Of a DNA stretch of 31,032 nucleotides, positions 818 to 20,700 are shown piece after piece. The notes beneath the pieces are model-generated. The model saw only the letters and a list, made by a program, of their open reading frames with translations, was not told where the DNA came from and did not search any database. The DNA comes from a virus, in IMG/VR virus record IMGVR_UViG_3300008108_000405, positions 1 through 31,032 of that record. One strand, given 5' to 3'. Made by a program: the position numbers and the translations under genes. Position 1 is the stretch's first letter; the number at the start of each line of letters is the position of its first letter.

Positions 818-3298
818 ATGGGATTTTTTGATGAAGTTAGAGGTGCAGCAACTACAGCATCTAGCCAAGTAACTAAAGTATTATCGGGAAATTCTGCAGT
901 TACACAAGGCATTGCTAGTGCAACACAATCTGCGGAATCTTTGAAAAATGCTGCTCTTAGCGGATTATCTAATGTGGGTACTAATATTGCAGGATTAGTC
1001 CCAGGTATTGCAAACTCCGCCACTTCCGCACTAGGCAGCATTGCAGCAGGACAGCCTACTCTTGACGTAAAAGGTTACACTTCAGGGTTTAAAGCATCTG
1101 TTCCAGGAACGCCTCCGTTCCCTAATGTTTTAAATCAATATACTTCGTTTAACTATATGTTTACATTAAGTGTACTTCCTTTAGAACACATTAATGATCC
1201 AAATTCAACTTACAGAAAAGGCGATTTAGGACCAATTATTATTAAGTCTGCCGGTGCCGCCCCAGAAAAAGATCTTGTATCAACTGCCTATGGCAAATAC
1301 GATTTTTATGTTGAAAATTTAAAAATCAGCGGCATGGTTGGTTTAAACAAAGGCACAGGAAATTCTAATGCGTTAAGCATGAGTTTTACAATCATTGAAC
1401 CTTATAGTATGGGACTGTTCTTCCAGGCTATGCAGACAGCAGCATTGCAGTCTGGGTACTTAAATTATCTTGATGTGCCTGTATTGTTGACTATAGAGTT
1501 TAAAGGACACATTGATGCTAATTTGTTAAACCAACAAATTGACAACACTAAAAAAATGATTCCTTTAAAACTTAGAGAAATAGGAATGCGAGTCACAGGA
1601 AAAGGTTGTACTTATGATGTAGAAGCTTATCCATGGAATGAGCAGGCATTTTCATCTTCTTATTCTCAAACTAAAACAGACGTTAATATTAGTTGTAACA
1701 AAGGTGGTCCTTATACAGTACAAGAAATGTTACAAAAAGGACAGAAAAGTCTACAAAAAGTTCTTAATGATAGATTAGATGAAGAACGTAAAAAAGGAAA
1801 TAAACAATTTTCAGATGAAGTAATAATTTTATTTCCTTCAGATCTTGCAACAGGTGATGCTGCTACCAGTGCCGATGCTGCGCCTAATGAAGCAGCGGAC
1901 AAACCAGCTACGGCCAAGCCCGGAGACTCTGCATCGTCTGGGATATTTAAAAAGTTAGGAATTGGTCGAGGAGACAATACTACTCTAGTCCAGTTAAACG
2001 CAGCTACCGTTAATAACATTGGTAAGTCTGGTATGGGCTTTAATCTTTACAACAAAGGCGATACCCCCTTTGCTAAAGATAACCTTGCCTATGACGAAGC
2101 AACAGGAATTTATAAACGAGGCAACGTACAGATTGATCCAAACAATGCAGATTTTAAATTTCCACAAGGATCTACAGTACAAGATATTATTAATCAAGTT
2201 ATATTAATGAGTGACTATGGTCGCCAAGCATTAAACAAATCAAACTGGACTCCGCAAGGACAAGTAGTATGGTGGAGAGTTGAAACACAATATTTTATGA
2301 AATCTAGTCCTGAAGATAATAAAGTAGGACAGAAACCCAAATTAATTGTCTATAGAGTTGTACCTTATTTGGTAGATGCATCTGTTTTTATACCACCTAA
2401 TGACAAGGCACCTGGTTTAGAAAACAAAAAGAAAGAAGCACTTAAAGAATACAATTACATTTATACTGGTAAAAATATTGATGTACTAGATTTTCAAATT
2501 GATTTTAAAGCAGGCTTTTATAGAGCATTGAATGCAGATGGCGGTAAAGAATCAGAATCTAATCAAGGAATGTCAGCTGCTCAAGGAGCCGGCACAGTTA
2601 AACAAGAAGCACAAGATGGCAAAAATCCTTCAGGCAGTACTCCTAATACTCAAGAAACTCCTGTTACTAATAAAACAGATAAAATAGGATCGGCTAGTCA
2701 TAAAAATGGCGGAACAGGGGTTGATGATGCTGCTACTATCGCCGCTAGGCAATTCCATGAACTAGCTACTCAAGGTACCGACATGATTAATTTAAACATG
2801 ACAATACTTGGAGATCCTTATTATATTAGCGATAGTGGATTAGGTAACTATTCCGCAGGCGCAACTGAAAAACAAAACATTAACACTGACGGTGCTATGG
2901 ACTATCAAACAGGCGAAGTGTTAATTAGTGTTAACTTTAGAACACCAATAGATCTAAACACTAAAACTGGCTTTTATAATTTTGGTGATACTAAACCTGT
3001 ACAACAATTTAGCGGATTGTTTAGAGTACTTCAAGTTGAAAGTATTTTTAATCGAGGAAAGTTTACTCAACAGCTAAGTTTAGTTAGAATAGTAGGACAA
3101 GACAATAAAAATGCTCCAGAAGGAGAACCGGCACTGCCAAAAGTAGCGCAACCAGATCAACCAGATGGAGAAGATGCTGGAGCAGACATTGATGCAATTG
3201 AAGCAGCAGCAGCCGAAGAATACCCAGATGGTGCACCTCAGCTTTCAGATCAAGAAGTTGCAGCTAATAATGCAGCCCTTGGAGATTTTAACGGATAA
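818..3298 (+). CDS. Large baseplate hub-like structural protein
   Basis: 826 residues. The start is ATG at 818 with GGGA at 807-810, one base after the gp53 stop. Residues 1-95 are Ala/Ser/Gly-rich and of low complexity. Residues about 110-260 form a folded domain with FNYMFTLSVLPLEHI and DVPVLLTIEFKGHID. About 340-372 is an Ala/Asp-rich linker. About 430-570 is a second folded part. About 590-645 is a Ser/Thr/Asn/Gln-rich linker. About 651-760 contains 'MINLNMTILGDPYYI' and 'FRVLQVESIFNRGKFTQQL', the sort of closing strands seen in gp27-like hub proteins. The tail end is acidic. It lies directly upstream of the gp5-like spike, so a hub role (gp27 equivalent) is the best inference. No catalytic motif is seen. 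It could instead be another baseplate protein peculiar to this phage group. Confidence 0.6.
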   Translation: MGFFDEVRGAATTASSQVTKVLSGNSAVTQGIASATQSAESLKNAALSGLSNVGTNIAGLVPGIANSATSALGSIAAGQPTLDVKGYTSGFKASVPGTPPFPNVLNQYTSFNYMFTLSVLPLEHINDPNSTYRKGDLGPIIIKSAGAAPEKDLVSTAYGKYDFYVENLKISGMVGLNKGTGNSNALSMSFTIIEPYSMGLFFQAMQTAALQSGYLNYLDVPVLLTIEFKGHIDANLLNQQIDNTKKMIPLKLREIGMRVTGKGCTYDVEAYPWNEQAFSSSYSQTKTDVNISCNKGGPYTVQEMLQKGQKSLQKVLNDRLDEERKKGNKQFSDEVIILFPSDLATGDAATSADAAPNEAADKPATAKPGDSASSGIFKKLGIGRGDNTTLVQLNAATVNNIGKSGMGFNLYNKGDTPFAKDNLAYDEATGIYKRGNVQIDPNNADFKFPQGSTVQDIINQVILMSDYGRQALNKSNWTPQGQVVWWRVETQYFMKSSPEDNKVGQKPKLIVYRVVPYLVDASVFIPPNDKAPGLENKKKEALKEYNYIYTGKNIDVLDFQIDFKAGFYRALNADGGKESESNQGMSAAQGAGTVKQEAQDGKNPSGSTPNTQETPVTNKTDKIGSASHKNGGTGVDDAATIAARQFHELATQGTDMINLNMTILGDPYYISDSGLGNYSAGATEKQNINTDGAMDYQTGEVLISVNFRTPIDLNTKTGFYNFGDTKPVQQFSGLFRVLQVESIFNRGKFTQQLSLVRIVGQDNKNAPEGEPALPKVAQPDQPDGEDAGADIDAIEAAAAEEYPDGAPQLSDQEVAANNAALGDFNG

Positions 3299-4941: not shown

Positions 4942-5388
4942 ATGACAGCTAGCCAAAGATTATATGATAAGATTGTTTTAAAAAGTGCAAACACTTCTGA
5001 ATCAATTCCGGGTACTAGAACTTATAAAGGTTTTAGCACAGTTGCTTCTACGGCTAATAGTTTTGCGCTCTACGACTTGGAACTAATTAAACAAGATTTG
5101 TTAAATCACTTTCATATACGACTAGGCGAAAGACTAGAGCAACCAGAGTTTGGCACTATTATATGGGACATATTGTTTGATCCGTTAACCGACGAACTAC
5201 GATCAGTTATTACAAAAAATGTAGAAACAATTGTAAATTATGATCCTAGAATACGTGCTGATCAAGTTATTGTAACCAGTTACGAAAGCGGTATACAAAT
5301 AGAATGTACCTTGGTATACTATCCCTACAACATTCAAGAATCAATACAGTTAAGATTTGATCAAGACAACGGTTTACTGCTAGTTTAA
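4942..5388 (+). CDS. 25: gp25-like baseplate wedge protein
   Basis: 148 residues. The gp25/GPW family core is clear at about residues 44-95: an 'LYDLELIKQDLLNHF' helix, then the strongly conserved 'GERLEQPEFGTIIWDILFDP' and 'DELRSVITKNVETIV'. This family forms the sheath-contacting, wedge-core component of contractile baseplates, including T4 gp25 and type VI secretion TssE. The length fits (T4 gp25 is 132 residues). The gene is separated from the spike gene by 15 nt, which hold a weak promoter-like octamer. No strong Shine-Dalgarno is visible apart from GGG at 4928-4930. It is followed by gp6, the usual gp25-gp6 order. Confidence 0.92.
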   Translation: MTASQRLYDKIVLKSANTSESIPGTRTYKGFSTVASTANSFALYDLELIKQDLLNHFHIRLGERLEQPEFGTIIWDILFDPLTDELRSVITKNVETIVNYDPRIRADQVIVTSYESGIQIECTLVYYPYNIQESIQLRFDQDNGLLLV

Positions 5389-5412: not shown

Positions 5413-5420
5413 GATAAATA
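5413..5420 (+). promoter_or_regulatory. Late-promoter-like octamer (GATAAATA) upstream of gp6
   Basis: GATAAATA in the 53-nt gap before gp6 matches the NATAAATA late-promoter motif reported for T4-like marine phages (T4 itself: TATAAATA). In T4 geometry, transcription would start about 6-7 nt downstream, near 5426-5427, giving a leader of about 15 nt that holds the GGGA ribosome-binding site. Confidence 0.6.
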
Positions 5421-5443
5421 CCTTATAAATGGGAATAAGGTAT
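5418..5443 (+). promoter_or_regulatory. Inverted repeat (9-bp stem) enclosing the gp6 ribosome-binding site
   Basis: ATACCTTAT (5418-5426) and ATAAGGTAT (5435-5443) are perfect reverse complements around an 8-nt loop, AAATGGGA. The GGGA ribosome-binding site is in the loop and the first two bases of the gp6 ATG are in the stem. The hairpin would form in read-through mRNA from gp25; an mRNA starting near 5426 would lack the left arm. Confidence 0.55.
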
Positions 5444-6122
5444 GTCAGCAACCGACAGACAAAATAGATTATTAGTAGCAGAAGACTGGAAACGAGTCTA
5501 TCAAAGTTTCCGAAATGCAGACTTCCAAAGCTACGACTTTGAAAATTTACGCAGGGTAATGATCAATTATATCAGGGAAAATTATCCTGAAGATTTCAAT
5601 GACTACATTGAATCTAGCGAATACCTTGCTCTTATTGATCTTATTGCTTTTCTTGGACAAAGTATTAGTTTCCGCATTGATTTAAATGCAAGAGACAACT
5701 TTTTAGAACTAGCAGAGCGTAGAGAAAGCATATTAAGACTGGCAAGACTATTAAGTTACAATGCAAAACGTAATGTTGCAGCATCTGGTTTATTAAAATT
5801 TACCACAGTTAGCACCACACAAACAGTTTACGATTCTAACGGAAGAAACTTATCAGGCCAGGTAGTTACATGGAATGACCCTGCAAATACCAACTGGTAT
5901 GATCAATTTGTAAAAATTCTTAATTCAGCATTGCCCGCAACTAGACAGTTTGGGAATCCTGACGACAAAAATGAAATTTTTGGAATTCCTACAGAACAAT
6001 ATAGATTCCAAAGCAGTAACACTGATGTTCCAATTTACAGTTTTTCTAAAACAGTAGACGGAAAAAATTTACCTTTTGAAATTGTTTCTACAGTGTTTAA
6101 AGGTTTAGACAAGGTATATTAA
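5442..6122 (+). CDS. 6: gp6-like baseplate wedge protein, N-terminal fragment (frameshifted)
   Basis: 226 residues ending at a TAA at 6120-6122. The N-terminus matches the gp6 wedge family of marine T4-like phages: 'LLVAEDWKRVYQSFRNADF', then 'FLGQSISFRIDLNARDNFL' and 'LARLLSYNAKRN' (about residues 10-115). These are the opening helices of the gp6/baseplate-J-like family. The start at 5442 has GGGA at 5431-5434. The fragment is far shorter than any gp6; the homologous sequence continues uninterrupted in the -1 frame from 6119 on (LNQGTFSI...). The complete gene would span 5442-8782 and encode about 1113 residues. One missing T in the run near 6119-6120 (TAT-TTA-AAT instead of TAT-TAA) would restore it. 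It is therefore either a sequencing or assembly indel or a real lesion. Confidence 0.85.
   Translation: MSATDRQNRLLVAEDWKRVYQSFRNADFQSYDFENLRRVMINYIRENYPEDFNDYIESSEYLALIDLIAFLGQSISFRIDLNARDNFLELAERRESILRLARLLSYNAKRNVAASGLLKFTTVSTTQTVYDSNGRNLSGQVVTWNDPANTNWYDQFVKILNSALPATRQFGNPDDKNEIFGIPTEQYRFQSSNTDVPIYSFSKTVDGKNLPFEIVSTVFKGLDKVY
6101..6122 (+). other. Frameshift junction inside gp6
   Basis: The two gp6 frames overlap only between the stop TAA of the -1 frame (6098-6100) and the frame-0 stop (6120-6122). The protein sequence is continuous across it: GLDKVY in frame 0, then LNQGTFSITQPS in frame -1. No canonical X-XXY-YYZ slippery heptamer is present in these 22 bases. A one-base deletion in the T run fits better than programmed frameshifting. 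Confidence 0.8.
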
Positions 6123-6202
6123 ATCAAGGAACATTTTCTATTACACAACCATCAACTAATGAAACAGTTGATATTGATGCAACCAACATTAATAACTCAG
6201 AT

Positions 6203-8782
6203 GTGTGGTTATATAGACTTGATCAGAACGGATTAGAGTCAGAATATTGGGCTCCTATTTCTTCCTTAGAGGGAAATAATACAATTTACAATAGCCTTAA
6301 CAAGTCGATAAGAAACATCTATAGTGTTATTACTCGTGCTGGAGATAGGGTAACTTTATCTTTCAGCGACGGAACTTTTGGTAACTTACCGTTAGGCACA
6401 TTTAGATCATATTATCGTGTGAGTAACGGAACAAGTTATATTGTTAATCCTAAAGACATTAAAAATGTTTCTATAGAAATCCCATATGTTTCTAATTTAA
6501 ATCAGTTAGAAACATTATCTGTTACTCTTAGTTTACAATCTTCAGTTAGTAATTCTGTTGAAGCTGAGTCAAACGCAAACATTAAATCTAGAGCACCGGC
6601 GACTTATTATACACAAAATCGTATGATCACGGGCGAGGACTATAATATTAGTCCATTAAGTGTCAGCCAAGAAGTTGTAAAAGTTAAAGCAGTTAATCGA
6701 TCAGCTAGCGGCATTAGTCGGTACTTTGATCTTGTAGACCCAACTGGCAAGTACAGTAAAACTAATCTCTTTGCAGACGACGGCGTGTTGTATAGAGAAG
6801 AATTTACTGATAGTTTTAGATTTAGTTACACAACAAGAACAGATATTGAAGCAATGATCTATAATCAACTTACTGAGTATTTAAAAAGTACATCATTAAG
6901 AGATTACTATTACACTAAATTTATTGCTATTGCTACGGATTCTTTGAATGTGTCTTTTTACAATAAAACAACTGATATAAATCAATGCACAGGCTACATT
7001 GGCGGCACTGCACCTGATCCATCCACCCCGTACAAAGTTGGAACTTTTTCAACTACACTTTTAAGATTTGTCACCAGTGGTGCCCTAGTTAAATTTGTTG
7101 CACCTACTGGAAAATATTTTGATAAAAGCAATAACAATGTACTTACAACCGGTGACGGTACTGCAAAAAATGCTAGTCGATATATTTGGACTAAGGTAAT
7201 TTCAGTAGCCGGTGACGGTACTAACAACGGCACCGGAGTATTAATTGACGGGTCTGGGACTATCATTTTTAATGACATAGTCCCTAGCGGAGCATTGCTT
7301 GCTGAAATAATCCCAGCATGGAGAACAACATTTGATACTAATACCGTATCGACAATGATCGATTTAGTTTTTGCTAATAAGCCGTTTGGTCTTCGCTACG
7401 ATGTTGAAGATCGTAATTGGAAAATTATTTTTGAGGTTAACCTTAATACTTCTTCTGATTTTAGTTTAGGCAAGCAAGGCGATAATTCTAATCAACAATT
7501 AGATTCTAGCTGGCTAGTATTGTTTACAACAGATACTGAATATTATACTGTTCAGTTTAGATTGTTACGTTATATATTTGAAAGCGATACGCAAGTACGA
7601 TTCTTCTTTGATGCTAGCGATAAAATTTATGATACTAGAACTAACACTGTAGAAAAAGACAAAATAAAAGTTTTAAGCATTAACTTAGATCCTGCTAGCG
7701 AATTTGGCACCACACCATTTACCTATGACAAAGATTGGGAAATTACCGAAGAATACACTGGATTAGATGGATATGTAGATACTAAAAAAATTCAAATATC
7801 ATTTAGTGATACAGACGACGACAGTGTTGTAGACAATCCTGACATTTTCTTAGAGATAGTTGATCCGCTAACTAATCCTACTTCAAAGTATGTTGTTCAA
7901 GAATTGTATATTATTGAACAACAGCAAGAAGATTATCGTTGGATAGATAACTCAACAGGTGTTGTTATAATATTATCTACTCAGCCAGTTACTGGTGTTA
8001 ACGGACAGTATTATTATTTTATCGACACAGATGTTGTTAAAGTTTACAGCTCAACAACTGGAACTTTTACACCGTCTTTAAATTATAAAGTATATGTTGG
8101 AAGATCAAATCTAAAGTTTCAGTACATTCACAATGCCGATTACGAATCTAGAATTGATCCAGGATTAACTAATCTAGTTGATATCTTTGTATTAACCAAA
8201 CAATATGATAGACAATACAGAGAATGGTTAAACGGATCTAGAGCAGTGCAACCATTACCACCTAGTAGTGATGCATTATACAACTTATTGTCACCTGATC
8301 TTAACAAGATCAAATCAATAAGTGATGAAATTGTTTATCATCCGGCAAAGTATAAAGTATTATTTGGACCAACATCTACTATTGATGTACAAGCTACTTT
8401 TAAAGTAGTAAAAAATTCAGAAATTGTTATCAGTGATAATGATGTTAAGTCAAGAGTATTATCTGCAATAAATGAATTTTTTAGCATTGAAAATTGGGAG
8501 TTTGGGGATAATTTTTATTTTAGTGAATTATTAACTTATGTAATGAATAGAATTGCTCCGAACATAGTTAACTTTTTAGTAGTACCTAAAAAGAACGATC
8601 TAACATTTGGTAGTTTATACGAGATTAGGTCTGAAAAAGATCAGATTTTTATAAATGGCGCAACAATAGATGACATTGAAATTATTAGTGCAGTAACGGC
8701 AAGTAAATTAAAATCATCTGGTAATATTACTATTGCAGAAACAACAACAAGTCAACAAAGTATAACAAGTGGAAGTAACTGA
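6203..8782 (+). CDS. 6: gp6-like baseplate wedge protein, main C-terminal part (frameshifted)
   Basis: The open frame runs back to about 6101. The first usable start in it is GTG at 6203, which lies inside the coding sequence (the V of DVWLYRLD) and has no Shine-Dalgarno, so this is not a convincing independent start. The 859 residues hold a baseplate-J-like segment ('APATYYTQNRMITGEDYN', about residues 130-147 of this part), a long middle region with no family I recognise, and a C-terminal part containing 'SAINEFFSIENWEFGDNFYFSEL', typical of the wedge dimerisation end of gp6/J proteins. In T4, gp6 dimers form the continuous inner ring joining the wedges. The stop TGA overlaps the ATG of the giant gene (TGATG at 8780-8784). 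The gene identity is secure; whether the break is real is open. Confidence 0.87.
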   Translation: MWLYRLDQNGLESEYWAPISSLEGNNTIYNSLNKSIRNIYSVITRAGDRVTLSFSDGTFGNLPLGTFRSYYRVSNGTSYIVNPKDIKNVSIEIPYVSNLNQLETLSVTLSLQSSVSNSVEAESNANIKSRAPATYYTQNRMITGEDYNISPLSVSQEVVKVKAVNRSASGISRYFDLVDPTGKYSKTNLFADDGVLYREEFTDSFRFSYTTRTDIEAMIYNQLTEYLKSTSLRDYYYTKFIAIATDSLNVSFYNKTTDINQCTGYIGGTAPDPSTPYKVGTFSTTLLRFVTSGALVKFVAPTGKYFDKSNNNVLTTGDGTAKNASRYIWTKVISVAGDGTNNGTGVLIDGSGTIIFNDIVPSGALLAEIIPAWRTTFDTNTVSTMIDLVFANKPFGLRYDVEDRNWKIIFEVNLNTSSDFSLGKQGDNSNQQLDSSWLVLFTTDTEYYTVQFRLLRYIFESDTQVRFFFDASDKIYDTRTNTVEKDKIKVLSINLDPASEFGTTPFTYDKDWEITEEYTGLDGYVDTKKIQISFSDTDDDSVVDNPDIFLEIVDPLTNPTSKYVVQELYIIEQQQEDYRWIDNSTGVVIILSTQPVTGVNGQYYYFIDTDVVKVYSSTTGTFTPSLNYKVYVGRSNLKFQYIHNADYESRIDPGLTNLVDIFVLTKQYDRQYREWLNGSRAVQPLPPSSDALYNLLSPDLNKIKSISDEIVYHPAKYKVLFGPTSTIDVQATFKVVKNSEIVISDNDVKSRVLSAINEFFSIENWEFGDNFYFSELLTYVMNRIAPNIVNFLVVPKKNDLTFGSLYEIRSEKDQIFINGATIDDIEIISAVTASKLKSSGNITIAETTTSQQSITSGSN

Positions 8783-11700
8783 TGGCAACAAAAAATCAAT
8801 CTGAATCAGCATTACCCGTTCCTGGTAACAACAATTCTAGGAAAACTTCGGATCTGTTACCTAGATTCTATAAAACAGACAGCAATAAGAAATTCTTTTC
8901 TGCTACATTAGATCAGTTAGTTCAACCTGGTACAGTAAAAAAAGTAAGTGGATATATTGGCAGACAAAATGCACCGTACGGCCCAACACCTATTGAAGTT
9001 GCAGGACAACAACTAGCAATTGAAAGTACATTTACTGTTGTTGCAGAAGATAACGGTGACAACTATGCTTATCTTTTTACTCCCGACGGCCTAACTAGAA
9101 ATCCTACAATTACATTATTTAGAGGTCAAACTTATAAATTTGAAATAGATGCGTTACACAATCCGTTTGCTATTAAAACACAACGAGTTGTAGGCACACT
9201 TGACAGATTTACCGAAGGTGTAACTGGCAACGGGACTGAACAAGGAACACTTACTTTTGTAGTAGGTATAGACACTCCTGATGTACTGTATTATGTAAAT
9301 GAAGCAGATGCTAATACAGGCGGAACGTTTCAGATTAAAGATATTGATGAAAACACTTTCCTTAATGTAGGTGCTGATATATTAGGTAAAAAATCTTATA
9401 CATTGTCTACAGGAACAGCGTTATCTAATGGAATGAAACTATTTTTCTCAGGTAATGTATCTCCAGAAATTTACAGTAGCGGCTATTGGTATGTTGAAGG
9501 TGTAGGTACTACAATCAAACTAGTATCAGAAGTTGATTTAGAAATTAGTGGAACATACACTGAAGAAACTGCATTGCTATTTGATGATAACCCGTTTGAC
9601 CTAGATCCATTTAGTACTATTACAAATACTCCTAAAGAAAAAGATTATATTGTAATCAACAGATCTAGCCCGGATCGAAATCCGTGGTCAAGATACAATA
9701 GATGGTTTCATAAAGATGTTATTACTGCGTCAGCGGAATCTGCTGGACAGTTTCCAGAGTTTGATCAAACTGCAAGAGCCAACAGACCTATTATCGAATT
9801 TAGTGCTGGATTAAAACTTTATAATTTTGGTCATCAAGCAAAGAAAAATGTTGACCTAATAGATAATTTTACCACTGATGTATTTTCTACAATAGAAGGT
9901 AGTCTTGGTTATAATATTGACGGAGTTGATGTTGTTAACAACATGCGTATCCTGTTTACCGCAGACCCTGACAGACTAGTTAATGGTCGAATTTTTAAAG
10001 TTAATTTTATAGAAGTAACAGTTCCTAATAGACAGTTTAATTTTAATGCAGTTACTGGTATAAATTTAACTACAAAAGTTATTACTACTAGTACTGTACA
10101 CGGTTTAACAACAGGTAATCAAGTTATATATTTGAACAACGGCGAATTAAATATTAACGGATTAACTCATAGAAGAGTTTATTATGTTCGAGTTGTTAAC
10201 GACACTGAGATACAATTATACACTAATAAATTATTATCCGTTGAAGCAAACATTTTTGATGTAGGCATTGGAACACACAGTTTTGAAGTGTTTACTGGGG
10301 TACGCCGCCAAATTAATCTAGTTGAAGAAGCTGATTCTGCCCCATTAGAAAACGAAACAATATTAGTAAATCTTGGACAAGTTGAAGAACTTATTCCTAA
10401 CTCTTTGTACGGCAATAGGGGAATGATGTACTGGTATAACGGTACTAAATGGAAACTTGGACCTATTAAATCTACTGCTAATCAGCAACCTTTATTTGAT
10501 ATATTTGACTCTAACGGTTATAGTTATAGTGACACTACAATTTATGACGGATCTAGTTTTAGAGGAACTAAAGTTTTTTCTTACAAAGTAGGCACTGGCA
10601 CCAATGATTCAGTATTAGGTTTTCCGTTATCTTATCAAAACATTAATAATGTCGGTGATATACAATTTGAATTTGACTTACTTAAAGATAGCTTTACCTA
10701 CAAAGACGTTGCTGATGTATTGTCAAAAACAACTAGTGTTGGATATTTAAAATTAGTTAATACTCTTACAAATTACACTTACGAGAACGGATGGAAAACA
10801 TCTCAGATAGATAATATACAACCTGTAGTAAGAATATTTAAAGAAGAATATCGAACGCTATTTGATGGATCTAAAAATCTTATTGTAAATAATTTTCCAG
10901 TAGATGTTTTTGATTTTAAAGATCAATTAACAGATTTAGAAATAAAGGTCTATGTTAATGGTCGCAGACAAAACAAAGACTCATTTACAGTTATCAACGG
11001 CCCAACTTATAAGACTGTAGTGTTAACTACAGATGTAACTAATGCCGATGTAGTTACTTTAAAATGTTATGCTAAACAGTTAAAGAATGATAAGGGATAT
11101 TATGAAACACCTATTAGTTTACAAAACAATCCTTTAAACAATGATGTTACACAGTTTACACTAGGTGAAGTCATTGATCACGTAGATACGATTGTAGATA
11201 ATATAACAACCTTTTCTGGAACATATCCAGGCAACGGAAACTTGCGAGACATTGGAAATTTAACTCCGTACGGTGCCCGATTTGTCCAGCATAGTGCTCC
11301 ACTAAACTTTAGCTTATATCATCTTGGATCTCAAACATCTAATATGTTTAAGAGTTTAGAACAAGCTAGAGATGATTACGGCAAATTCAAACGAGCATTT
11401 ATTACCTATGCATCTAATGCAGGAATTGACACTGATCCAAGACCGTTTGTAGATATTATTCTAACTGAGCTTGCCAAAGATAAACCTAAAACAAGTCCAT
11501 ATTATCTATCAGATATGTTTGGATATTCTGGTTCTAAGAGATTAGAATACACAGTGGTTGACGGCAGAATTAAAACATACCCATTAACTTCTGCGTTTAA
11601 CCTTGCTTTATTATCAAATAAAGCAGTTGGCGTTTACCTCAACGGCAATCAATTATTGCACGGCCGTGATTATACATTTGGAACAGATGTATTTTTTACT

Positions 11701-14700
11701 ATCTTAGTTGAGCTAGTTGAAGATGATTTAATTGAAGTTTACGAATACGAAAGTACCGACGGCACCTTCTGCCCACCAACTCCGACTAAACTAGGTTTAT
11801 ATCCTCTGTTTGAACCTAAAATATATACTGACGACACTTACCTTGAACCTACTACAGTTATTCAGGGCCACGATGGTAGCATAACAATAGCCTATGATGA
11901 CTACAGAGATGATCTAATCCTAGAATTAGAAATGAGAATTTTTAATAATATTAAAATTTCTTACAACTCTGATATTTTTAATATCTATGATTTTATTCCT
12001 GGGTATAGTAGAACAACTGAGTACTCTAAATTTGAAACTGATAATGTCCTGGGACAATTCTTTTTCCAATGGACAGCAAATGTTAACCAAGATTTTACAC
12101 AACCAAATATTGATTTATGGTCTAGATTAAATCCGTTTACATTTAATTATAGAGGTAATTTTGCTCCTAATGGCACTGATATTCCAGGATTCTGGCGCGG
12201 TGTATATCGCTGGATGTTAGATACAGATAGACCACATACCCATCCTTGGGAATGTTTAGGGTTTAGTATAGAACCAACATGGTGGCAAGATGTTTACGGA
12301 ACAGTGCCCTATACTAGTGACAACTATGTATTGTGGGAAGACATTCGCCAGGGTATTATTAGACAACCTGGCGTTCCTATTCGAATTTTAGAAAAGTTTG
12401 CTAAACCTATTCTTTCTTCAGGCAAACCTGTTGACGAAGACGGCAATTTAATTAGTCCATTATATGCAAGTTATGCAAATGGTCCTATAAAAGAAACTGC
12501 AGAAGGCTCATGGGTATTTGGTGATCAAGCACCTGTAGAGACTGCATGGAGACGTAGTAGTTATTATCCATTTGCATTAATGCAAACAGCATTGTTGTTA
12601 CATCCTAACAAAGTATTAGGTTCAACATTTGACAGAAGTAGAATTGTTAGAAATCTTAGCAATCAATTAATTTACAAAGATACAGGTAGAAGAATTAGAC
12701 TTGAAGACCTTGCTGTTACCTCAACCGCGTTAAGCTCTACAAGAGTATATACTGCTGGATTAGTGAATTATCTTGTAGATTATTTGACCAGTGATACTAC
12801 TGCTTTATTAGATCAGTATGCTGATGATTTACAATCTCTTACTACAAAAATTGCCGCAAAACTTGGCGGGTTTACATCGAAAACTAAATTTAAATTAATT
12901 CTTGACAGTAAAAATCCCAGTAGTTCTGGAGGAGTTTTTATTCCGGAAGAGAATTATAATATTTTCTTAAACACTAGTTCCCCTACAAATCGGTTAGCAT
13001 ACAGTGGCGTTGTTATTACAAAATATGCCGACGGTTATGAAATTAGAGGGTACATTAAAGATCAACCGTACTTTGTTTATTATCCCTATCAGCAAAATGA
13101 ACGGGTTATAAATGTCGGCGGAATTTCTGAAAGTTTTATTAACTGGGAGTCTGACAAATATTATACTGCCGGAAAACTTGTTAGATATAACAATCAATAT
13201 TTTAGAGTAAAGATCACTCATCAGTCAACTACTGAGTTTGATCCTGATTATTTTACCCGATTGGCTGCACTACCTGTTACAGGAGGCCGAGAGGCAATTA
13301 TTAGAAAGTCTTGGGATAAAAACACTAAGATTACAATTAGCTACGGAACAAAATTTAAACAAATACAAGAAGTTGTAGATTTCTTGCAAGGCTATGGGGC
13401 ATACTTACAAGAACAAGGATTTGTATTTGATGAATATAATCAAAATTTAAAAGCAGTTGACAGCTGGGAAACTTCAGTAAAAGAATTCTTATTTTGGTCC
13501 ACACAAAACTGGGCAGTAGGGTCGGCATTAGCAGTAAGTCCTTCGGCTAGATACATGCTAGTCAAATCTGACACGGCGGTAGTTGATAATATTCAAAATA
13601 GTTTCTATGGCTATAAAGTTTATCGTGTTGACGGTGAAAAAATAGATCCAGAATTTACAAACACTTACAGAGAAGAAAACGAGTTCTCACTCTCTCCTCA
13701 AAACACAAATCACGGATTGTATGGAGCAGTATTACATACAGTTCAAAAGGAACATGTGTTAATACTTGACAATGTAACACAGTTTAATGATATAATTTAT
13801 GATCAAGCTCCTGGATATAGACAAGAGCGAATTAAGATTCTAGGATATGTATCAGCTAATTGGAATGGTAGTTTTAACGTGCCTGGATTTATTTTTGATA
13901 CTGCTAGAATAGCTGACTGGACTCAATGGTCAGATTATAATCTAGGTGATATTGTAAAATATAAAGAATTTTATTATTCTGCAAAGTCATTCTTGCCTGG
14001 AGTAGCTGAGTTTGATAATTCCAGTTGGGTGTTATTAGAAGAAAAACCAAAAGCACAGTTGTTACCTAACTGGGATTATCGTGCCGAGCAATTTACAGAT
14101 TTTTATGATCTTGACAGCGATAATTTTGATTCTGAACAACAAAAAATGGCGCAACATTTGATTGGTTACCAGAAACGTCAGTATCTAGAAAATATTATTC
14201 AAGACGATCTTAGTCAGTATAAATTCTATCAAGGAATGATTTCTGAAAAAGGTACACAAAATGTTTTTAATAAATTATTTGATGTATTAAGTGCAGATGG
14301 CCAAGAAAGTTTAACATTTAACGAAGAGTGGGCAGTTCGTGTTGGTGCATACGGTGCAACTGATTCTTACAAAGAAATAGAGTTTAAATTAGACGAAAGT
14401 TTGTTTAAATTAAATCCGCAACCAATAGAATTAACTTCAACTATTAATCCTTCAATAGTTGACTTTGTTTATAGACAAGTTCCTACAGATATTGTTGTTA
14501 AACCAGTAGGGTATAATAATGAACCTTGGCCAGTAGAAGGCACAGAACAATATTTAAGAACGCCGGGGTATGTCAGATATGAAGATGTTAAATTAAATGT
14601 TGATTCTCTTGAAGATGTAATAGCATACGATATTTCCATGTTTGAAGAAGGTGATTATATTTGGTGCGCATTTGAAAATAAATTAAATTCTTTTAATGAT

Positions 14701-17700
14701 TATTGGAATGTTTATAGATTTACTAAAAATACTTTTGGAATTGCCGATGTCGAATACGCTTCTGGCACACTAACCCTTCAATGCGATAGAACTCCGAATG
14801 TAGCAGCTGGAGACATTATTGGAATTGAAAATGCCACTGCTATTCAAGGTTTTTATACAGTAGCATCTATAGTAAACAAAAATATTATCATCAAGACAAC
14901 TATTAAAGATTGGACATCCCCGTTTACTGATAGTTCTGAAATTTTAACATACAAGTTTATTAGATCTAGAATTGATAATGCTAACAATATTAACGATTTA
15001 TTACCACCAAAGATAAAAGCCGGCGAACTTATCTGGGCAGACAATAACGGTAACGGATTAAAAACTGTTTATGAAAATAATAAAGTCTATGGTCAAAAAA
15101 GTTTATCTAAGGCATCGCCGATTTTACCAAATGTAAATTTTGGTAAAAAAGTAGCAATGTCAGAAAATGGAAAAACTGCCGCTGTGGCCGATAATAATAA
15201 AGTAACAATCTTTGTTAAAAATTCCTTGGGCAACTGGCTAGAACAGGATATAATGACTGCTGACTTTGAATCGTCAGTAACTACTATTGCTAGATCTACT
15301 GCTAGTGGTACAAATATTATAACAGCCGACGACACTTATAGTTTTGAATTAAACGATCCTGTAATGTTTTCGGGAGTAACTGTCGGTAGTATTATTAGTG
15401 GTAGAACATATTTTGTTAAGACGAAGCCCAGTAACATTACATTCACAATATCTGAAACACCAGGTGGCCCTACATTTGAGCTAACTTCTGGTTCTATTGA
15501 AATGAATGTACACCTTAAATTAGAATACGGAACTGAAATGTGTTTTAGTCCTGATGCTGAATGGTTGGCTATTGCTGCTCCTAGAGCAAGCAATGTTCGG
15601 TCAGCCTGGCGAGGTGATTACGATGGCGGCCACGAATACAATGCCGGAGATGTTGTACAACTTAGAACAAACTTTACAACTGAGCGTTCTTTAAATTCTC
15701 ATTGGACAGCTAGAGGAAACATTCCTGCAGCAGATTGGAGTACTATAAATTCTTTTAGTCAAGATTGGTTAGCAACTGATTTAATTACAGTTAATAAACA
15801 ATTTGCAGACGCTGCTTACCTTACAAACAGTTACGAAAATCTTGGATATGTTGATTTATATAGAAGAGGATCTTTGGCAGGGTCATATGACCTAGTTCAT
15901 AGTTTTGTAAGCCCTAATCCGACACAGGGTGAACGTTTTGGTTCTAAAATGGTAATGGCTCAGACTGGTAGTGAATATGTATTAGCAGTTACTAGTCCTG
16001 GCACAGATACAGAATCAGTTGATTCTACAGTAGTTCAAGGGCGTGTTTACATGTATAGATACGGTACTGGCGCCGGCGACGATAGTTCTGTTAGATGGCA
16101 AATGGATTATGATAGAAATTATCAGGGAGCATTTGATTCTTCTAGAAGTTATCTGCAAGGTGATATTGTATTCTATGATTACAATTTATATGAGTGTGTT
16201 GGTAATACAGATTTTCAAAATCCTGCACCTGACCAATCAAGTCTTTGGTCCCCAGTAACAAAGTCAAATATTCTAGGGTATTTCCCTCAAGAATCAAGTT
16301 TATTTGATGTTAACAATAACGATCTAACGTTGGCAGCATTAGAAGGACAGACAATTGAATCTGTTCAGCCTGGCGATAAGTTTGGCGCAGCAATTGACAT
16401 GTCCAGTGACGGACAGACACTAATAATTTCTGCTCCAGGTGCAGACCAGGATACCTACGAAAACTATAAAGGCCCTTTTAGAACATCTTTAAAATATTTT
16501 GAAAATGATGTAGTTTATTACAACGGATACTACTATAAGTTTAATCAAACAGCTAGTGCAGATCCTATTATTTCTTTTAATACTACACATTGGGATAAAG
16601 TGTCTACAGAAACTAGAAGTATAAATTCGGGTAAAGTCTTTATCTATACTTACAACGGTGTTGGATACGAACTAACACAAACATTAACCAGCGACAACGT
16701 AGACATTGAAAGAGAAGACCAGTTTGGTGAATCTATTGCAGTATCCGCAACTGGTGGATACATTGCAGTAGGTACCTCATTATATGATTCTAACAAACGT
16801 GATGCAGGCCGAGTTATTATTTTTAAGAAAGGTACAACCTACACTAAGAATCAACTACTATACAGTTATACTAAAGAAACTTTTGAAAGATTTGGTGCTT
16901 TTGTAGACTTCATGAATGACGATGAAACTCTAGTAGTATTCTCAGGTAATGGTGATGTTGAACGTGTTACTACATTTGATCTAGGTAAATTAACTATTGA
17001 TAATAATACGCTTAGAATTGCTGACTTACAAGTTGACACTGGCCGAGTTGATATTTTTGACAAATACAACGAAAATTATATCTACGGTGAAAGCCTTGAC
17101 ACTTCTGTAACAAATGATGACACTGATAGATATGGTGCATCTATTGCAGTAGGTAATAATAACATCTATGTTAGTTCCCAACGCGACGATGGATCAACAT
17201 CTACATTTGTACAAAGAGAAGGTAAAGTTTATGCATACTATAAACTTGCTAATGCTACATCTTGGTCTGTACTACACCAAGAAGTTAAAAAACCAAATGT
17301 TCGTAAGATTAAAAAATCATATCTATACAACACAACTACTAGTAAGTTAATTTCTTATCTTGATGTTGTTGATCCTATACAGGGAAAAATCCCCGGACCA
17401 GCAGATCAAGAAATTAGATTTAAAACATATTTTGACCCTGCTGTTTATTCAGTAGGAACTAGCGCGGTTAATGTTGACGTTGGTATGAACTGGACAAAAT
17501 CGCAAGTTGGTATGTTATGGTGGGATTTAACTCGCGCCAAGTTCTTAGACAATCAAATTGGGGAAACAATTTATAGGTCAACTACTTGGAATAGGTTGTA
17601 TGAAACTGCCAGTATTGATATTTACGAGTGGGTTGAAAGCAAATTCTTACCTGCTGACTGGGACATCTTATCAGGTACTGATAAAGGAACTGCTGCCGGT

Positions 17701-20700
17701 ATTAGCGGAACATCAAAATATGGTAGTGCAGTATACAGTGTAAAAAAACGATACGATAATGTATCGAAAACTTTTATAAACACTTATTACTATTGGGTTA
17801 AAAATCCTACAATTACTCCTAATGTTTTAGACAGAAAACTATCTGCATTTAATGTTTCAAATTTAATTGCAGACCCAACCGGGCAAAATTATTCTTGTAT
17901 AGCGTTAACTGGCGCCAACACATTTAGTTTAATCAATGCTACTAGTTTAATTGAAGGTACTAGTTCAAATTTAAATATTCAATACTGGATTGTTGATGCT
18001 GATTACACACAACAAAATGCTCATAGTCAGTGGAAAATTATTAGTGAAAATCTTAATACTGTTATTCCTAGAGAAATAGAAAAGAAATGGGTTGACAGTT
18101 TAGTGGGTAAAGATGCGTTTGATAGAGTTGTTCCTGACCCTAGTTTGCCTATTAAACAACAATATGGCATTTTGTTTAGACCTAGACAGAGCATGTTTGT
18201 TAATAGAACTGAAGCATTAAAACAATATATCGAACGTGTAAATTCTGTACTAGCTACACGGTTAATTGCTGATGACTATGATACAAGCAATTTATTACTA
18301 GTAGATCCTTCACCTAGTCCTGTATTAGGATTATGGGATTCTTCAGTTGATACAGAAGCTGAATTAAGATTTATAGGTACTGCTAATCTTAGAGCTGCAA
18401 TCTTAGAACCTATTATCATTGATGGTAGAGTTTTTGGAGTTACAATTATTGATTCTGGGTACGGATATATTAATGCACCATACTTACATATAACAGGGCA
18501 AGGAAAGAATGCTAATGTTAAGACAATTATTAACGCCACTGGACAAGTTACAGGTATAGAAATTATCAATAAAGGTGAAGGTTACTTAGATAATACAATA
18601 TTTGAAATTAGACCATTCTCAGCGTTGGTACTCAGCGACTCTACTACTTTTGACAAGTGGAGTATATATGAATGGAATTCGGCAACAGTAACATGGGAAA
18701 GAACTAGAAGTCAGGGGTACGATGTTACAAAATACTGGTCTTATCAAGACTGGTATAGTGCCGGATACAATCAGTTTACTAAAATTGACCATGTTGTTGA
18801 AAACACCTATGAGTTAGCCACTCTCGATGTTGAAATTAATCAAATTGTTAAAGTTAACAATATAGGTACAGGCGGCTGGTTACTATTAGAAAAATACGCT
18901 AATATAGCAACAATTGATTATACTGAAAATTATAAAGTTATTGGTAGACAAAATGGAACAATAAAGTTTTCCAGCAGCCTATACAATTTTAGTAATTCTA
19001 TTATAGGATATGGTAGTGATTTGTACGACAGTACATATTATGATAATTTAGCTGTTAAAGAGCTAAGAATTATTATTGATACTATTAAAACTAAAATACT
19101 AGTTGACGATTTAAAAGTTGAATACTTAAAATTATTCTTTTCTAGTGTAAGGTATGCTCTGCAAGAACAAGCATTTGTTGATTGGGCATTTAAAACAAGT
19201 TTTGTTAAAGCTACACACAATGTTGGAGATTTAAAACAAAAAGTTACCTACAATAGTGACAACCTTGAAAGTTTTGAAGACTATGTTAATGAAGTTAAAC
19301 CTTATAGAACTCAAGTTAGAGAGTATATCAGCTCTTATTCAAAAGTAGATCCTAATCCAAATAGTGTAACTGACTTTGATCTTCCTCCATTGATTAATGA
19401 AAACTTTACAGTTGATCCGTTAACTGTTAAAATTTCTTCTACCGGAGCAATTGAAAGCGGGTACGCTGTTTTACAACAGTATCCGTGGAAACATTGGTAC
19501 GATCATGTTGGATTTAAAATTACCACTATTGAAATTGTTGACGGAGGCTCAGGCTATATCGACAATCCAGTAGTTAGGATTAATGGTGGGTTTGGGACTG
19601 GCGCAGTTGCTAAGGCTTATATATCTAATGGTAAAGTTAACAGAATACAATTGGTTAATTCTGGAACTGGTTTCTTAAAAGCTCCTGAAATTGTAATTGA
19701 CGGTGGTCTTGCAGTCGACGGAGTTCAAGCTAGAGCTGTGGCTATTATTGAAAGTGAAGTTGTACGTGCTAATAAGATTAGTATTAAATTTGATAGAACT
19801 AGCAAAACTTATTTTGTATCTGAAATTACAGAAACAGAAACATTTGTAGGAACTGGTTCAAGACTACAATTTGCTTTAAAATTCAGCCCATTAACTAAGA
19901 TTGGTACGTCGTCTGTTAAGTTATATCAAGTAGGATTAGATCCCGATAATGCAACAGTTACGGGGGTTGATGTTCTTAGAGAAGATTATACATTAACTAG
20001 TAAAAAATCAACTGCAAAAGGTTACACAAGTTATTCAGGATTGTTAACTTTAGCTACTGCTCCTGCAGTAGGCGAAACAATTAGAATAACTTATACAAAA
20101 GATTTTAACCACCTATCTGCAACTGATAGAATTAAATTCTATTATAACCCAACAACTGGAATGTTAGGCAAAGACGCAGACGACTTCTATGCTCAACTAA
20201 TGACAGGTGTTGACTACGGCGGAGTAAGCCTAACTGGATTAGGATTTAACATTGGCGGTGGATGGGATACTCTTCCTTTCTTTACTGACAGTTGGGACGG
20301 ATTTGATGCAGACTTTGACGACTACATTAAAGTTGTAGGATCAGACAGTGATGCACACTACGAGCACCAACTACCTTATACTCCTACTGCTGGAACAATT
20401 TTAAATGTTTATGTAAATGAACAACGAATTGATGATCCGTATTTTGATCTATATGATGGTTCTACTGTACAACCTAATGGCAGAAAAGTTGCGCCAGCCG
20501 GAGCAGTGATGAAAACTATCACTGCCAGCGGCACAACAGATATTTTCTATTTGCCAAACAACAGTGATGGTACTTATCTTGACATAAATGAAGGAGATAG
20601 AATTATATTCCGTAAGAATACTAGTGACGGAAGTATTACTCCTCGTCCAGAAGAATACGATACACAACTAAGTGGCGGAAATCTAGCATACACTACTGCT

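Follow-up and report, generated by a model that had tools for sequence, protein, structure and literature searches.

A start-covering hairpin at a late-promoter box before the baseplate gene gp6 of a T4-like phage, a probable promoter-dependent translational switch

Results

The leader of the baseplate wedge gene gp6, found in a 31,032-base virus record in IMG/VR (hereafter the window, meaning this whole stretch of DNA), is probably a promoter-dependent translational switch of the type described for the T4 genes e, soc and 49. The first-pass annotation of this DNA had proposed the same mechanism, in which a hairpin hides the gp6 start and a late promoter removes one arm of it, and among the explanations that we weighed this is the best one.

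Organization of the gp6 leader

A perfect 9-bp inverted repeat (5418-5443, + strand) precedes gp6 in the window sequence. The left (5') arm, ATACCTTAT, occupies positions 5418-5426, and the right (3') arm, ATAAGGTAT, positions 5435-5443. Between them, the loop AAATGGGA (5427-5434) contains a Shine-Dalgarno (SD)-like GGGA at 5430-5433, which is separated from the gp6 AUG by 8 nt. The AUG lies at 5442-5444, with its A and U inside the stem, as part of the right arm, and its G outside. The left arm overlaps the end of a late-promoter box, GATAAATA, at 5413-5420 (+ strand), assigned by sequence match and by the presence of a TAAATA box before gp6 in the relatives. The 9-bp repeat, the GGGA in the loop, the start codon partly in the stem and the box had all been placed by the first-pass annotation, and every one of these positions was exact. 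In T4 late promoters, transcription starts six bases past the box; with this spacing, inferred from the established T4 promoters, the box end at 5420 gives a predicted start at 5426 (+ strand), the 3'-terminal base of the left arm. Assuming the T4 spacing, late RNA would then lack the left arm.

Upstream of the leader is a homologue of gene 25, a baseplate wedge gene (4942-5388, + strand; PF04965 GPW_gp25, 2.9e-9; phrog_261/phrog_43), which would be the source of read-through RNA into gp6; no terminator-like site was found between gene 25 and gp6. In our model, read-through RNA from gene 25 and beyond would carry both arms, which would pair and hold the AUG in the 9-bp stem, and gp6 would be poorly translated from this RNA. 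RNA started at the box, by contrast, would begin at about 5426 without the left arm, could not form the hairpin, and gp6 would be translated.

The gp6 gene of the window (5442-8782) is split near 6120 by a stop codon and a shift of frame: an N-terminal part of 226 aa ends at a stop (5442-6122, + strand; phrog_10646, 1.5e-86), and the remainder is in another frame (6203-8782, + strand), whereas the relatives have a single intact ORF of ~1,143-1,166 aa. Either a sequencing error or a genuine defect may account for the split. Downstream, a single ORF of 4,695 aa covers positions 8782-22869 of the window, with a partial match to phrog_10938 (virion structural protein). By gp6, the closest named phages are the T4-like jumbo phages Atu_ph07, PA5oct and RaK2, at <50% identity.

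Predicted folding of the read-through and late RNAs

Opening positions -14 to +5 of the window's gp6 leader is predicted to cost 12.1 kcal/mol in the read-through RNA versus 4.4 kcal/mol in the late RNA, and the predicted clade medians, obtained with 44 leaders, are 9.9 and 4.2 kcal/mol, respectively. For the T4 genes, the corresponding costs go from 15.5 (long RNA) to 4.5 kcal/mol (late RNA) for e, from 16.5 to 3.3 for 49, and from 8.0 to 5.7 for soc. In a 300-nt read-through context at 37 C, the stem pairs have predicted probabilities of 0.62-1.0, and the predicted unpaired probabilities at this temperature are 0.08 and 0.07 for the A and U of the AUG. The isolated gp6 hairpin (-7.8 kcal/mol) is near that of soc (-8.5 kcal/mol) and weaker than that of T4 e (-12.3 kcal/mol). 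The logic of T4 gene e, as transferred to gp6 by the first-pass annotation, is thus supported in part, for the late box, the start-covering hairpin, the covariation described below and the energies, which lie within the range of T4 e, 49 and soc, while the loss of the left arm follows only with T4 spacing.

The SD-like GGGA is fully exposed in the loop (predicted unpaired probability of 1.0), so repression could be partial. The same exposure would suit a hairpin that is real but helpful, in which the GGGA loop, like the structures of T4 genes 25 and 38, aids ribosome loading on the read-through RNA. We consider this improbable: in T4 25 and 38 the stem lies between the SD and the AUG, where it shortens the spacing and enhances translation (PMC3014915), whereas gp6 has its AUG inside the stem and an SD-AUG spacing that is normal to begin with.

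The late box is conserved before gp6

The gp6 relatives were gathered by protein similarity, and also with a DNA pattern formed by the box, GGGA and the first codons, pairing not being required. A TAAATA box was present at -40 to -18 in all of the 69 distinct gp6 leaders of the first set. In four long relatives, the ATAAATA-GGA-ATG pattern gave 45 matches versus 1 for the reversed control, and at 16 loci of ~10 kb each the gp6 box was nearly the sole ATAAATA or GCTAAATA on the gene strand. Relative G003 also carries a gp55-like late sigma factor (phrog_12791, 7e-77; L641, G003:8500-22000, at 6466-7290, - strand), divergent from the baseplate operon leading into gp6; the window itself is a 31-kb fragment. 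Because the box is conserved, the pattern is found 45 times versus once and G003 encodes a gp55-like sigma factor, the box before gp6 is very probably a late promoter. Similar boxes have been described elsewhere: ATAAATA ahead of structural genes in the jumbo phage CBB (PMC5259590), and NATAAATA as the corresponding box in cyanophages (PMC2984593). The low number of ATAAATA words in the window (3 versus 19.8 expected) was discarded as evidence, since it mostly reflects depletion of shorter words; on the + strand of the window 1.8 were expected from its sub-words and 2 were seen.

Among the named relatives, Munch has GATAAATA at -37 of gp6, and no late box was found close before gp6 in Atu_ph07, SCTP-2, Phosso, PA5oct and RaK2. 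The gp6 leaders of the sister clades and of more distant relatives keep the box and have no stem, indicating that the hairpin is clade-specific and dispensable, not essential for gp6.

Compensatory changes in the window's clade

In the window's clade the bases preceding the AUG vary (TAAGGT, GCAGAT, AAGCGT, AGGCGT and GCGGAT, among others), and the upstream segment varies alongside. With pairs counted at fixed distances from the box and the ATG, two registers were distinguished. In register A (14 leaders), the left arm starts at the fourth base of TAAATA; the positions box+6/-2 are CG, TA or TG and the positions box+9/-5 are TA or GC, both paired in 14/14 leaders, and the positions box+10/-6 (AT, TA or TG) are paired in 13 of the 14. 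In register B (21 leaders), the left arm ACGCT overlaps GCTAAATA and pairs with AGCGT, and six pairs hold in 20-21 of the 21 leaders. Three register B leaders (L020, L023 and L443) have CCGCT/AGCGG, shifted by two; a column alignment of this register, which misplaced them, was dropped. The hairpins of L204 and L450 reach 11 pairs. On the gp6 tree the two registers occur in scattered places, and well-supported branches force at least 4 and at least 2 changes.

The native arm pairings scored 16.2, compared to 12.3 +- 0.5 when the arms were permuted among 43 related leaders, and none of 100,000 permutations reached the native mean; this was still the case (0/100,000) when each right-arm hexamer was represented by a single leader (n = 21), and 3 of 20,000 permutations did so when folding energy was used with 69 gp6 leaders, all of these being counts that overstate independence because the leaders are related sequences. 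Since the chimeric leaders generated by permutation share the box and the ATG, the three free pairs that these can provide do not account for the excess pairing. Moreover, most of the wobble pairs read U-G on the sense strand, the pattern that sense RNA should give. This comparison of leaders indicates that the gp6 pairing is conserved by compensatory change in the near clade only. Conservation of the repeat in relatives, on which the first-pass annotation had made its proposal depend, therefore held in the near clade, with compensatory changes, and did not extend to the distant gp6 leaders, which have the box and no stem.

The same evidence bears on two other functions for the repeat. One is that it works as DNA, either as a dyad bound by a regulator or as part of the late promoter, and the left arm does overlap or touch the promoter box in most leaders. 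This is very unlikely, however, because complementarity is kept while the arm sequences differ completely between relatives, because sense-strand U-G pairs are tolerated even though they break dyad symmetry, and because the right arm is tied to the start codon. We give an equally low probability to the idea that the hairpin is an RNase site for the processing or stability of a polycistronic baseplate RNA, with secondary effects on translation: although it sits between two same-strand cistrons, in most leaders the right arm extends over the AUG, and AU-rich stems of 8-11 bp are short for RNase III.

At L167 (7379-7410) and L200 (324-355), a small ORF has ATACGCT/AGCGTAT around its late box and start, with the layout of gp6 register B. 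The ORF of L167 belongs to phrog_37117, of unknown function.

Chance occurrence of the hairpin

In the window by itself, the hairpin is modestly unlikely. When the leader was dinucleotide-shuffled 20,000 times, 108 shuffles reached the same stem score (p ~0.005 for gp6, a per-gene value in a window with ~13 gene starts), and short repeats are common, with 17 perfect 9-bp inverted repeats (loops 3-12) counted in positions 1-31032 versus 2.4 in dinucleotide shuffles, which leaves the window by itself no more than suggestive. The comparison with the relatives argues that the hairpin is well beyond chance. Another shuffle left the box intact and randomized just the few bases that follow; its z was close to 0 both for the window and for a known positive, T4 gene 49. 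Because this shuffle is powerless when the arm touches the box, it was replaced by the chimeras. Coincidence, with a box that ends in ATA and a start that is often TATG giving three free pairs and an AT-rich leader supplying the rest, is the least probable reading of all, since the modest p value, the many 9-bp repeats of the window and the sister clades without a stem are outweighed by the shortfall of chimeras sharing box and ATG (0/100,000) and by the changes on both sides of the pairs.

A second late gene with a start-hiding hairpin

When the folding of 43 late leaders from four long relatives was analyzed, most differed little between long and late RNA; the standouts were gp6 and one small ORF, plus a few singletons. 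This small ORF, a second late gene of the group, is a conserved ORF of ~94-106 aa (MSRPKPKVLLEYTN...), present at L534 (G001:247700-249100), L512 (G004) and L556-L635, for which no Pfam or PHROG match was found. Most of its 74 distinct leaders contain TAAATATATGCGTA ... TACGCATATG, and the hairpin at the late box, ATATGCGTA/TACGCATAT, covaries with ATACGTA/TACGTAT: a left G is combined with a right ACGC in 45 leaders and a left A with a right ACGT in 14, the crossed combinations occurring in 2 (59/61 matched). In the permutation test with the 74 distinct leaders, 0 of 20,000 permutations reached the native mean. Judged by these leaders, the start-hiding hairpin of the second late gene is stronger and better conserved than that of gp6, and as an independent case it strengthens the gp6 reading. 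The gene that precedes the second late gene in Phosso and Atu_ph07 is annotated as glutaredoxin, a nucleotide metabolism gene, which would fit read-through from earlier transcription at this locus. Among the named phages, most have the box at the second late gene, and no clear start-hiding stem was found.

A further hairpin was observed at L491 (3240-3290, - strand), near-perfect, with >20 bp and -32.5 kcal/mol, before a 253-aa ORF (2474-3235); it encloses a late box and ends just short of the start codon. By eye, this ORF gave the impression of a GIY-YIG endonuclease, which was unsupported by Pfam.

Discussion

The gp6 hairpin is real, and we regard it as a probable further case of the known switch of T4 e, soc and 49. 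As to its purpose, the baseplate genes upstream are, like gp6, probably late. In relative G003 a ACTAAATA box followed by an SD lies ahead of the upstream baseplate operon, so the read-through RNA may itself be late, and the switch may distinguish one late RNA from another. Because the upstream genes are probably late, the hairpin may serve to tie gp6 to its own promoter, uncoupling it from the upstream genes, rather than to silence it early. A broader idea, which we put forward tentatively, is that across a large group of T4-like jumbo phages, most of which are uncultured, promoter-opened, start-hiding hairpins could recur on chosen virion genes and genes of unknown function, rewritten in sequence and register, tying translation to the gene's own promoter within late operons and not silencing it early.

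The switch of T4 gene e is a textbook case based on few coliphage genes. Here, comparative sequence, beyond a single fold, backs a switch of the T4 e type for a structural gene of a distant group of phages, in which the arm sequences have been rewritten several times. The gp6 gene would allow one to test cleanly why a late gene should refuse translation from read-through RNA, and the design of its leader provides a sequence signature for finding similar genes. In the literature searched, mostly outside the subscription journals, we found no report of such a hairpin on gp6 or in jumbo phages.

A review of post-transcriptional control in T4 lists e, soc, 49 and I-TevI as having inhibitory structures of this kind and adds, as predictions, the leaders of gene e in close relatives of T4 (PMC3014915). 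The gp6 leader resembles that of T4 e in its late box, in a left arm that starts inside the box (T4 e TATAAATACCTTCTA...TAGGAGGTATT ATG), and in a right arm beside the start; with T4 spacing its late RNA would also lack the left arm, a loss that in T4 e lowers the opening cost by 11 kcal/mol. It differs from T4 e in that the SD is in the stem in e and in the loop in gp6, and in that e is a lysis gene and gp6 a baseplate wedge gene; for T4 e, moreover, early read-through and a 100-fold repression have been proven (PMC3014915). T4 49 and soc have the same layout with late boxes, their inhibition being established (PMC3014915) and that of gp6 predicted. T4 25 and 38 share with gp6 a structured leader RNA, and T4 25 is also a baseplate gene, but there the promoter removes no arm, and the gp6 stem is not placed as their enhancing stems are. 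Finally, the leaders of I-TevI and other homing endonucleases likewise hide the start in read-through RNA (PMC3014915), although those are mobile-element genes and gp6 is a virion gene.
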